A DNA stretch of 64,000 bases from contig NZ_CP040813.1 of the NCBI RefSeq assembly GCF_009498295.1, positions 1,867,001 through 1,931,000 on the forward strand, read 5' to 3'. Positions 8,956-61,354 of the stretch are shown one piece after another. This DNA comes from Oceanihabitans sp. IOP_32 (lineage in GTDB: Bacteria > Bacteroidota > Bacteroidia > Flavobacteriales > Flavobacteriaceae). The position numbers and the translations under genes are program-made. Under the pieces are notes generated by a model. That model saw nothing but the letters and a program-made list of their open reading frames with translations, ran no database searches and was not told the DNA's origin. Numbering within the stretch: position 1 is the first letter of the stretch; the number at the start of each line of letters is the position of its first letter.

Positions 8956-8962
8956 TATATAA

Positions 8963-9224
8963 TACCAAATTAGCCATGTCATGCCGTATATAATTCGTTT
9001 ACTCACATCTTTCTATTTTATAAAATAGGTGTTCATGATGTGCTTCGCAGTTCTTTTTCGCCCATATTTCGGTATAAAATAAAACCATAACTCAGGCTAT
9101 GCTTTGATTTTAGCTCACGCTTCTATTATTGTAAAATAATGAGTTCGTGAATCTGCGATTTCTATCTCATCTGAACAAAAAATAATTCAAATTAATAAAA
9201 CGACATTTCAAAACTAAATTGGTA
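8963..9224 (+). repeat. MITE-like element, copy A (long form, 262 bp)
   Basis: A non-coding element bounded by TACCAAATTAG and CTAAATTGGTA (imperfect 11-bp terminal inverted repeat) and flanked by a perfect TAA duplication (8960-8962 and 9225-9227). It is about 97% identical to copy B at 16655. Compared with the 160-bp short form (copies C, D, F) it has two additional hairpin-forming modules, at about 9001-9052 and 9112-9161, that resemble each other. It lies between convergent genes, 15 bp after the end of the secreted EEP gene. It has no open frame of interest and no transposase. Confidence 0.85.
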
Positions 9225-16586: not shown

Positions 16587-16654
16587 TTAGAATTTTGAAA
16601 ACCAGATAGCAATAGGTATTGTTATCTTTAAACCATTGGGCTTCTTGTTGGTTA

Positions 16655-16915
16655 TACCAAATTAGCCATGTCATGCCGCATATAATTTGTTTACTCACAT
16701 TTTTCTATGTTATAAATAGGTGTTCATGATGTGCTTCGCAGTTCTTTTTCGCCCATATTTCGGTATAAAATAAAACCATAACTCAGGCTATGCTTTGATT
16801 TTAGCTCACGCTTCTATTATTTTAAAATAATGAGTTCGTGAATCTGCGATTTCTATCTCATCTGAACAAAAAATAATTCAAATTAATAATACGACATTTC
16901 AAAACTAAATTGGTA
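16655..16915 (+). repeat. MITE-like element, copy B (long form, 261 bp)
   Basis: It has the same ends as copy A (TACCAAATTAG ... CTAAATTGGTA) and is flanked by a perfect TTA duplication (16652-16654 and 16916-16918). About seven substitutions and one 1-bp gap separate it from copy A over 262 bp. It contains both extra hairpin modules. It lies between convergent genes, 16 bp after the end of the second EEP gene. The remaining bases of the 345-bp gene-free stretch (16587-16651) show nothing. Confidence 0.85.
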
Positions 16916-39107: not shown

Positions 39108-40430
39108 ATGAAGGTATTAAAGTTTGGGGGCACCTCGGTTGGTTCCATTGAAAACATGAGTAATGTTAAGACTATAATTAATGATGGCCACAAGAAAATT
39201 GTGGTTTTATCGGCTATGTCTGGCACGACAAATCAGCTCGTTGCAATTTCTAATTATATTAAAGACGAGAAACGGGATGCTGCAATGGTAGAAATTCATC
39301 AGCTTTATGATAGCTATATCCCGGTAATTGATGGGCTTTTAACCGATAAAAATTTAAATACAGAGGTGAAACATTACGTTTCAGATATTTTTAGTTTTAT
39401 CATACAGGCTACAAACAAAACTTTTTCAAAAACCTTAGAGAATGAAGTCTTAGCTCAAGGTGAATTGCTCTCTACCTTTATATTTAATGCGTATTTAACT
39501 CAAGAAGGCATACGATCGGTCGTACTACCCGCTTTAGATTTTATGCGAATAGACGCTGCTAAAGAACCCGATTTACCTTATATAAAAAGGCGTTTTCAAA
39601 ACGTTTTTAACGCTTCCGAAGCTTCTGATGTATATATAACTCAAGGTTTTGTATGTTTAGATGCTGATGCTAAAATATCAAATCTACAACGGGGCGGTAG
39701 CGATTATACAGCCACTATTATTGCTGCGGTGATTAGGGCTGAAGAAGTGCAAATATGGACCGATATTGATGGTATGCATAATAACGATCCAAGAATTATA
39801 GAAAACACCAAACCCATCTCAAATTTATCTTATGATGAAGCCGCCGAGTTAGCTTATTTTGGGGCAAAAATATTACATCCGCAAACGGTAACACCAGTAA
39901 GGGCACACAATATACCTATTCGATTAAAAAACACGCTTAATCCTCAGGCTTTGGGGACTTTAATATCTTACCAAACCTCAGAAAATGGTGTAAAGGCAAT
40001 GGCGGTTAAAGATGGTATTACGGCGATAAAAATTAAATCTGATCGTATGTTGCTAGCTCACGGCTTTTTAAGAAAGATATTTGAGGTTTTTGAGCTTTAC
40101 GAAACGGCTATAGATATGATTACAACCTCTGAAGTTGCCGTGTCTCTAACTATAGATGATGCTAAAAATTTAGAATATATCATTGCAGAGCTACAAAAGT
40201 TCGCTGTGATTGAAGTTGACGAAAATCAAAGTATTGTGTGTTTAGTGGGGCATGAAGTTGCAAATCATCAAGATACTTTTAAGTTGTTTCATATTTTAAA
40301 AGATGTGAAAATTAGGATGATTTCTTATGGAGGCAGTAATAACAATATCTCCCTACTAATTAATACCAACGACAAGATAAAAACACTAAAAAAATTAAAT
40401 ACTTATGTGTTTGATTGGGTTGGGGTTTGA
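39108..40430 (+). CDS. lysC: Aspartate kinase
   Basis: A 440-residue monofunctional aspartokinase that phosphorylates aspartate at the head of the lysine/threonine/methionine pathway. The N-terminal MKVLKFGGTSVGS is the ATP-binding signature; FVCLDADAKISNLQRGGSDYTATI (about 190-213), WTDIDGMHNNDPR and PISNLSYDEAAELAYFGAKILHPQTV complete the kinase domain. The C-terminal 150 residues form tandem ACT domains for feedback control. Two ATGs are adjacent (39105, 39108); I chose the second. It is followed by a heptamer repeat array and a hairpin. Confidence 0.93.
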   Translation: MKVLKFGGTSVGSIENMSNVKTIINDGHKKIVVLSAMSGTTNQLVAISNYIKDEKRDAAMVEIHQLYDSYIPVIDGLLTDKNLNTEVKHYVSDIFSFIIQATNKTFSKTLENEVLAQGELLSTFIFNAYLTQEGIRSVVLPALDFMRIDAAKEPDLPYIKRRFQNVFNASEASDVYITQGFVCLDADAKISNLQRGGSDYTATIIAAVIRAEEVQIWTDIDGMHNNDPRIIENTKPISNLSYDEAAELAYFGAKILHPQTVTPVRAHNIPIRLKNTLNPQALGTLISYQTSENGVKAMAVKDGITAIKIKSDRMLLAHGFLRKIFEVFELYETAIDMITTSEVAVSLTIDDAKNLEYIIAELQKFAVIEVDENQSIVCLVGHEVANHQDTFKLFHILKDVKIRMISYGGSNNNISLLINTNDKIKTLKKLNTYVFDWVGV

Positions 40431-40438
40431 TTTAGTTT

Positions 40439-40522
40439 TAGAACCTAGAACCTAGAACCTAGAACCTAGAACCTAGAACCTAGAACCTAGAACCTAGAAC
40501 CTAGAACCTAGAACCTAGAACC
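40439..40522 (+). repeat. Heptamer tandem array, 12 perfect copies of TAGAACC
   Basis: Exactly 12 head-to-tail copies of TAGAACC begin 9 bp after the lysC stop and run into a degenerate TAGAATC. It lies between convergent genes, so it does not change any reading frame. Such arrays vary by slippage, so copy number probably differs between strains. Confidence 0.97.
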
Positions 40523-40544
40523 TAGAATCTATAGAATAGAAAGT

Positions 40545-40570
40545 CTAGAGTCTAGAAATCTAGACTCTAG
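40545..40570. terminator. Perfect inverted repeat between lysC and pepP
   Basis: CTAGAGTCTAGA (40545-40556) and TCTAGACTCTAG (40559-40570) are exact reverse complements with only two bases between them. The sequence is built from the same TAGA-type units as the heptamer array. It may work as a bidirectional terminator, although no T-run adjoins the stem. Confidence 0.6.
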
Positions 40571-48812: not shown

Positions 48813-48875
48813 GCTTTATCTCACACTATCTATTTTAGGATTTCCTTTTTTTTAAAAGTCAACAATATAATCTTA

Positions 48876-49034
48876 TACCAATTTAACCATATAATGTCGT
48901 AATAAATAGCTTCTTTTTTGCTTACTTTTCATCAAAAATAATTACCGTAACGATGCTATGCTATTTATTTTTCATTTCAATTAATCAAAAAATAATTCAA
49001 TTTATTTACACGACATTACAAAGTTAAATTGGTA
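48876..49034 (+). repeat. MITE-like element, copy F (short form, 159 bp, divergent)
   Basis: Its ends TACCAATTTAA and TTAAATTGGTA are flanked by a perfect TTA duplication (48873-48875 and 49035-49037). The interior aligns loosely with the short form of copies C and D (the ACGATGCTATGC segment and the AAATAATTCAA segment near the right end) but is well diverged, so this is an old copy. It sits between the sdh terminator and the xth promoter region. Confidence 0.75.
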
Positions 49035-51450: not shown

Positions 51451-51610
51451 TACCAATTTAGTTTTGAAATGTCGTATTATTAATTTGAATTATTTTTTGT
51501 TCAGATGAGATAGAAAATCAAAGCATAGCCTGAGTTATGGTTTTATTTTATACCGAAATATGAGCGAAAAAGAAACAAATTATATGCGGCATGACATGGC
51601 TAATTTGGTA
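51451..51610 (-). repeat. MITE-like element, copy C (short form, 160 bp, inverted)
   Basis: It is the reverse complement of the family orientation used for copies A and B. It starts TACCAATTTAG, ends CTAATTTGGTA, and lacks both hairpin modules, joining the flanking core segments cleanly. The flanks are TTA on the left and TTG on the right, so the target duplication is one base from perfect. It lies 50 bp upstream of the aldo/keto reductase start and could influence that gene's expression. Confidence 0.82.
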
Positions 51611-51660
51611 TTGTGGGATTATGACAGCTTACTGATAAGTACAAATTAAAAAACACTAAA

Positions 51661-56865: not shown

Positions 56866-57073
56866 TACCTGTTTAGGTTTGAAATACCACAATATTAATT
56901 TGAGTTATTTTTTAATCAGATAAGATAAAAAACCAAAGCATAGCATTGGTTATAGTGTTTTTTATTACAAATATGAGCAAAAAGCACGGCAAAGCACATC
57001 ATGAACACTTATTTATAGAATAGAAAGATGTGAGTAAACACATTATAGACGACATGACATGGCTAATTTGGCA
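56866..57073 (-). repeat. MITE-like element, copy E (intermediate form, 208 bp, inverted, degraded)
   Basis: Read on the minus strand it starts TGCCAAATTAGCCATGTCATG and carries the first hairpin module (CTCACATCTTTCTATTCTAT ...) but not the second. It then joins the core and ends AAACCTAAACAGGTA. The ends have diverged and no target duplication remains (TGA left, TTT right). It lies 31 bp after the stop of the STAS-like gene. The rest of the 542-bp gene-free stretch 56563-57104 shows no gene; the promoter of the jelly-roll operon should lie in 56563-56860, but I could not pick it out. Confidence 0.7.
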
Positions 57074-57104
57074 TTTAATAAAAAAGCATAATTTACCAGG
57101 AATT

Positions 57105-61107: not shown

Positions 61108-61194
61108 TACAATTATTTTGGGTGTCATATTTTTTTGTTAATTTTAAGTTTATCAAAAGCAAAAGAGTAGTTTTGCAAGTTATTAGTTAAATAA

Positions 61195-61354
61195 TACCAA
61201 ATTAGCCATGTCATGTCACCTATAATTCGTTTCTTTTTCGCTCATATTTCGGTATAAAATAAAACCATAGTTACGGCTATGCTTTTATTTTGTATCTCAT
61301 CTGAACAAAATACAATTCAAATTAATAATACGACAATTCAAAACTAAATTGGTA
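61195..61354 (+). repeat. MITE-like element, copy D (short form, 160 bp)
   Basis: TACCAAATTAG ... CTAAATTGGTA is flanked by a perfect TAA duplication (61192-61194 and 61355-61357). It lacks both hairpin modules. It separates mutY from ssb and ends 14 bp before the ssb start codon, so it forms most of the ssb upstream region. Confidence 0.85.

Follow-up and report, generated by a model that had tools for sequence, protein, structure and literature searches.

The window analysed here is a 64,000-nt stretch (G000:C1:1867001-1931000) of the 3.48-Mb chromosome that forms the single-contig genome of the flavobacterium Oceanihabitans sp. IOP_32. It carries several copies of a MITE whose 163-bp core has the ends ATACCAAATTA.../...TAAATTGGTAT (terminal inverted repeats TACC...GGTA) and is interrupted, in some copies, by one or both of two short modules, M1 and M2. 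The features are as follows.

8962-9224, plus strand: MITE copy A, both modules, order L-M1-MID-M2-R (from the alignment and piece profiles of genome copies)
8999-9050, plus strand: module M1 of copy A, hairpin TTACTCAC...GTTCATGA with mini-hairpin TGC-TTC-GCA (presence or absence at the exact junction in genome copies; limits match the 49-bp Bizionia tandem unit)
9051-9108, plus strand: core segment MID of copy A, separating slot 1 from slot 2 (found whichever of the four module states a copy has)
9109-9158, plus strand: module M2 of copy A, hairpin GCTCACG...GTTCGTGA with mini-hairpin AATC-TGC-GATT (presence or absence at the junction in this genome and in genus G138)
16654-16915, plus strand: MITE copy B, both modules (M1 16691-16741, M2 16800-16849)
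51451-51611, minus strand: MITE copy C, no module
56866-57074, minus strand: MITE copy E, M1 only (56988-57037)
61194-61354, plus strand: MITE copy D, no module

MITE copies were collected from the genome by BLAST and motif matches, the sequence around the matches was retrieved, and the element was divided into five pieces (L, M1, MID, M2, and R), each of which was run as a profile search. At least 67 near-complete copies have usable L, MID, and R pieces. Identical 3-bp flanks, mostly of the form TWA, occur in 27 of 40 intact copies (16 TTA, 10 TAA), against 15.3 expected by base composition. By its inverted repeats, short length, copy number, lack of coding sequence, and 3-bp target duplication, the element is a MITE. 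No autonomous partner carrying its ends appears among the R-end matches listed in this genome (100 of 125). The copies avoid divergent gene pairs, with 2 lying between divergent and 21 between convergent genes.

Other short repeats lie in the same chromosome. About 50 copies of a palindromic element of 40 bp, TACCAAATTAACCATACGACATTTCAAAATTAAATTGGTA (e.g., G000:C1 10432-10469, 107847-107883, and 2307640-2307677; 21 of 22 measured are 40 bp), look like MITE L and R ends fused at a common CAAATTAACCAT repeat. The 7-mer TAGAACC forms a tandem array at 40425-40557 of the window, and 7-mer arrays are also found close to module arrays in Bizionia (L262, L275).

Two slots and four module states

Each slot holds either no module or one, with M1 in slot 1 and M2 in slot 2. 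In a 56-copy alignment, empty slot 1 reads ...AATTCGT joined directly to TTCTTTTTC..., and filled slot 1 reads ...AATTCGT-TTACTCAC...CTTCGCAG-TTCTTTTTC...; empty slot 2 reads ...CTTTGAT joined directly to TTTCTATC..., and filled slot 2 reads ...CTTTGAT-TTTAGCTCACG...AATCTGCGA-TTTCTATC.... Insert lengths are discrete. At slot 1, 40 of 47 filled copies have an insert of 51-52 bp, and 22 of 23 empty ones have 0-1 bp; at slot 2, the insert measures 49-52 bp for 46 of 47 filled copies and 0-1 bp for 25 of 28 empty ones. Among the 67 copies, 35 carry both modules, 15 none, 10 M1 only, and 7 M2 only. The same short T-run borders a module at either side (TT for M1, TTT for M2), and direct repeats mark the slots (GATTT around M2, TT around M1). 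The two modules resemble each other beyond chance, with an alignment score of 30 that 10 of 2000 dinucleotide shuffles equal. One M1-only copy (G000:C1:967850-968073) has a partial duplication inside M1.

The initial annotation had described the modules from the copies in the window, and its overall observation holds more strongly than first stated, since the same two junctions and four states recur over 67 copies genome-wide. It was right that A and B carry both modules, that E holds only the first, and that the two modules are alike; the clean joining of the flanks that it reported proved to be a near-invariant junction among genome copies. Its modules of copy A are real, with true limits lying two to three bases further left. 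C and D, which it had grouped with F as copies lacking the modules, are true module-less copies. Element F (about 48875-49034) was dropped from this set, as it has mainly its ends in common with the modular MITE and belongs to a separate 160-bp MITE family of at least 7 copies without modules. The suggestion of a second, smaller repeat unit that enters and leaves as a module is supported by the constant boundaries and the four discrete states. Inconsistent boundaries and a lack of similarity between M1 and M2 were both looked for as evidence against such a unit, and the opposite was found in each case.

Module history compared with core history

We compared pairwise distances between the pieces of 36 two-module copies by Mantel correlation. 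The core pieces L, MID, and R are mutually correlated (r 0.36-0.42, p <=0.006) despite M1 and M2 lying between them; neither M1 nor M2 is correlated with a core piece (r -0.09 to 0.03). Averaged over pairs of copies, divergence is 0.14 for L, 0.14 for MID, 0.13 for R, 0.055 for M1, and 0.089 for M2, and module variation is concentrated at a few positions (M1 site 11; M2 sites 13-15 and 22-23). A null built from core sites matched in variability gives a mean r of 0.34 (minimum 0.10) for M1 and 0.40 (minimum 0.13) for M2, and 0 of 500 draws fall as low as the observed core-versus-module values of -0.045 and -0.043, respectively. Low module variability is thereby excluded as the reason for the missing correlation.

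Individual copies display the same decoupling. Where cores are less than 3% apart, M2 still differs by 8.5%, and a linked five-site M2 haplotype (TTC...A..A) sits on both young and old cores, whose divergence from the consensus runs from 0.05 to 0.10. Among four copies with one and the same core sequence, two (943799+ and 1883654+) carry both modules and two (2567634+ and 2464669-) carry none. Old and young copies exist for every module form. Private changes in old copies are rarer in the modules (0.014 and 0.019) than in the core (0.029; Fisher p 0.003). The core tree, with 2 of 61 branches starred, is poorly resolved, and the 16 (M1) and 14 (M2) state changes counted on it are not forced and are therefore not relied on. 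As judged from sequence comparison of copies at different loci, with the genus represented by one genome, these data show gain, loss, and replacement of entire modules, independent of the surrounding core.

Module structure and relatives in other genera

A module consists of an imperfect hairpin, TTA-Y-TC-R...Y-TC-R-TGA, followed directly by a mini-hairpin with a three-base loop. The complementary ends seen in the initial annotation correspond to the imperfect hairpin in each module; the separate 3' mini-hairpin tail comes in addition. Among 105 cross-genus modules, selected by the invariant part of the tail, the pair Y1-R4 is formed in 98 (Fisher p 6e-24) and the pair R2-Y3 in 96 (Fisher p 2e-25), and all four combinations occur. 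A 16-sequence alignment contains 13 double-change cells against 4.3 in shuffles, and its paired cells reach 99% compared with <=46% when slid. The tail stem also varies with compensation (TGC/GCA, ATGC/GCAT, ATAC/GTAT, and ATC/GAT).

The two covarying pairs enclose an invariant TC/TC; read from the minus strand, this becomes a tandem GA/GA with Py-GA-Pu context, and mismatches of this kind are known to be stable. All 6 of the 6 wobble-capable exceptions form G-U or G-T on the minus strand and 0 do so on the plus strand. A site for a dimeric protein would also fit the covarying positions, but the central TC against GA lacks the symmetry that such a site would have. RNA folding, which the initial annotation had proposed, contributes little, as minimum-energy folds of single modules recover the covarying stem poorly; the module structure therefore rests on the covariation, which supports the stem.

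The element has relatives in 57 of 397 Flavobacteriaceae genomes, mostly in a short form with MID joined to R. Slot occupancy abroad follows the same rule, with M1 in slot 1 in G088 and M2 in slot 2 in G138 and G135. In genus G138, some copies have M2 in its slot and others lack it, the junction being the same as in our genome, and near-identical cores carry two M2 hairpin types (TTCA...GTTC and TTCG...ACTC), distinguished by a compensating change from A-T to G-C, a whole-module swap.

Module units also occur alone, as the initial annotation had thought worth checking. Of 397 family genomes, 13 have the M1 tail motif and none matches a reversed control; in a wider collection the motif is present in 108 stretches, nearly all from Flavobacteriaceae; because these cross-genus searches used the M1 tail, units with other tails are under-counted. 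Most of these M1-tail stretches have no trace of this MITE nearby. Bizionia algoritergicola has tandem repeats of the unit TTATTCG...CTCATGATGTGCTTCGCAG with a 49-bp period, and Bizionia arrays mix unit types in a cassette-like manner. In B. myxarmorum and related loci, a unit is present or absent beside another, with limits equal to those in the MITE. Within our own genome, searches detected M1 with its own tail only inside the MITE, one chance match in coding sequence aside; a single module-like unit, with another tail, is located away from any MITE (G000:C1:26563-26602, minus strand). Taken together, these results show that the modules belong to a family of ~50-nt structured repeat units that extends across the Flavobacteriaceae; the presence of relatives alone and in tandem rows in many other Flavobacteriaceae marks the unit as an independent building block.

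Further arrangements were seen around modules elsewhere. The motif ACGAACCAAAAA lies within ~100 bases of 32 of 115 modules (loci L258-L365, several genera), compared with a background of 0.07 per kb. In B. myxarmorum, ~3.4 kb without an ORF of >=120 aa (L276:3900-7300) is a mosaic of modules and other short repeats. At a contig end in G058 (L200:1-260, minus strand), a module lies between two ~76-nt arms that are inverted repeats of each other, an arrangement that could be either an element or an assembly effect.

Known counterparts and routes of module exchange

Neither the window nor the element region nor any of 16 related loci matched one of the 4227 covariance models of Rfam 15, at gathering or at permissive thresholds. 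Phage records gave no match, and plasmid records gave only weak 53-base matches, between the MITE R end and four Klebsiella plasmids, which we regard as chance. A cis-regulatory RNA was rejected, there being no orientation bias relative to neighbouring genes (22 vs 17 codirectional for the MITE, 23 vs 17 for the cross-genus modules). Searching the open-access literature for the module sequence motifs gave no paper, and no description of such a repeat in Flavobacteriaceae was found among the papers listed; because the search reached mainly open-access papers, with most subscription papers outside its reach, the module unit tentatively appears undescribed.

The closest known kind is the BOX element of Streptococcus pneumoniae and S. 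suis, a likeness of organisation (PMC3049150). As described there, BOX combines fixed outer parts with a variable set of ~50-nt internal hairpin modules, which are absent in some elements and tandem in others, and its terminal inverted repeats suggest mobilisation in trans by an IS. Fixed outer parts and variable ~50-nt modules are found here too, as four states at two slots. The same account describes a variable tandem boxB array, whereas our MITE has two different modules with one dedicated slot each; no slot held more than one module, and tandem arrays were found only outside the MITE, in other genera. The MITE also belongs to a different phylum, and its module unit occurs outside it across a bacterial family.

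Weaker parallels are found in Correia repeat enclosed elements and BrickBuilt. The Correia MITEs of Neisseria come mainly in two sizes, 153-157 and 104-108 bp, with an internal difference of ~50 bp (PMC2649163), but this reflects one internal segment and one alternative form rather than two independent modules and four states. BrickBuilt, from Porphyromonas gingivalis (PMC4596501), is likewise a MITE from this phylum that encloses a repeated unit, but that unit is a species-specific 23-nt tandem minisatellite, in contrast to 50-nt hairpin modules common to several genera.

REP/BIME sequences and their RAYTs likewise involve short structured extragenic repeats, single or tandem, and atypical structures have been reported beside Bacteroidetes TnpA subclass 2.6 (PMC3733652, PMC6006769). 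Our modules differ in flanking no Y1/RAYT gene tested and in having no GTAG or CGTC tag, which is absent from the hairpin foot in the module consensus. A RAYT or Y1 enzyme was rejected as mobiliser, since no module lies near the Y1 matches of 11 genomes and modules also occur in genomes without such a match. Our genome encodes a 190-aa RAYT-like Y1 transposase near 819 kb (L244:1435-2007), between inverted GC-rich hairpins CCCCCGCTAGC...CACGCTCGTGCC that are probably its own REP family. An integron attC site, considered for the junction between G and TT, was dropped because the GTTRRRY core is absent.

We tentatively favour, with somewhat less than even confidence, a BOX-like modular repeat in which cassettes pass from one MITE copy to another, independently of the transposon itself. 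Two copies would pair through their common core, the module of one would protrude from the heteroduplex as a hairpin loop, and repair would add or delete exactly that loop; loss followed by regain from a different donor would produce a variant swap. Such repair of a looped-out module would explain the exact junctions, the slot specificity, and the intact linkage of the core, and copy-to-copy transfer may be the main route within the MITE population. The MITE copies themselves would spread by an IS-type transposase in trans, with modules hitch-hiking. Slot specificity common to other genera (G088, G138, and G135) favours homology-based transfer over free insertion. Exchange among a few master copies before their spread would give part of the decoupling.

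A serious, if rather unlikely, alternative is that the modules are ~50-nt non-autonomous mobile cassettes on which a dedicated recombinase or transposase acts as single-stranded hairpins, with the MITE slots as preferred targets. It draws on the strongly conserved module structure, the matching T-run at both borders, the occurrence of modules outside the MITE in many genera, and the cassette-like mixing of units in 49-bp tandem arrays; such an enzyme explains the free and tandem units elsewhere better than copy-to-copy transfer does. Heteroduplex repair leaves those units unexplained; some mobility of their own seems needed there. Against a mobile cassette, however, no enzyme was found, modules lie away from Y1/RAYT genes in the 11 tested module- or MITE-bearing genomes having one, and G021 and G252 carry modules but no Y1 gene. 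M1- and M2-type units are each restricted to their own slot, and the M1 unit is not found outside the MITE in its own genome. Nor is there the replication strand bias frequent in IS200-type ssDNA elements (39 vs 43, with the origin estimated by GC skew of sampled stretches only). It is less probable still, in our judgement, that the units form a new class of ~50-nt cassette-like mobile hairpin across Flavobacteriaceae, which would insert, excise, and swap as a unit via its tandem G-A mismatches and mini-hairpin and ride as a second-order passenger in fixed MITE slots.

Loss from an ancestral two-module element, by replication slippage over hairpins between short flanking repeats and with selection on a structured RNA or DNA accounting for conservation, would suit the direct repeats at the slots, the hairpin structure, the predominance of the two-module form, and the old and young copies of every form. 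We consider it improbable: deletion alone cannot place one linked M2 haplotype on both young and old cores or make the modules of nearly identical cores diverge beyond those cores, the repeat flanking M1 is only 2 bp, and most other genera have the short form. Selection at dozens of dispersed loci is also unlikely, and orientation relative to neighbouring genes is unbiased. The missing core correlation could instead reflect saturation at a few hypermutable or convergent module sites, and much of the variation does come from few positions. This would be very surprising, however, as variability is controlled by the site-matched null, M2 variants are linked five-site haplotypes, and a similar whole-hairpin swap is seen in G138.

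This MITE allows a direct test of how BOX-like repeats gain and lose internal modules. Each genome offers dozens of copies, in four states set by two dedicated slots and with module variants tagged by their sequence, and related genera contain the module unit both free and in tandem. For finding the protein or repair route involved, the structure supplies a concrete target, namely the mini-hairpin with its three-base loop and the covarying pairs on either side of an invariant TC/TC, which reads GA/GA on the minus strand.
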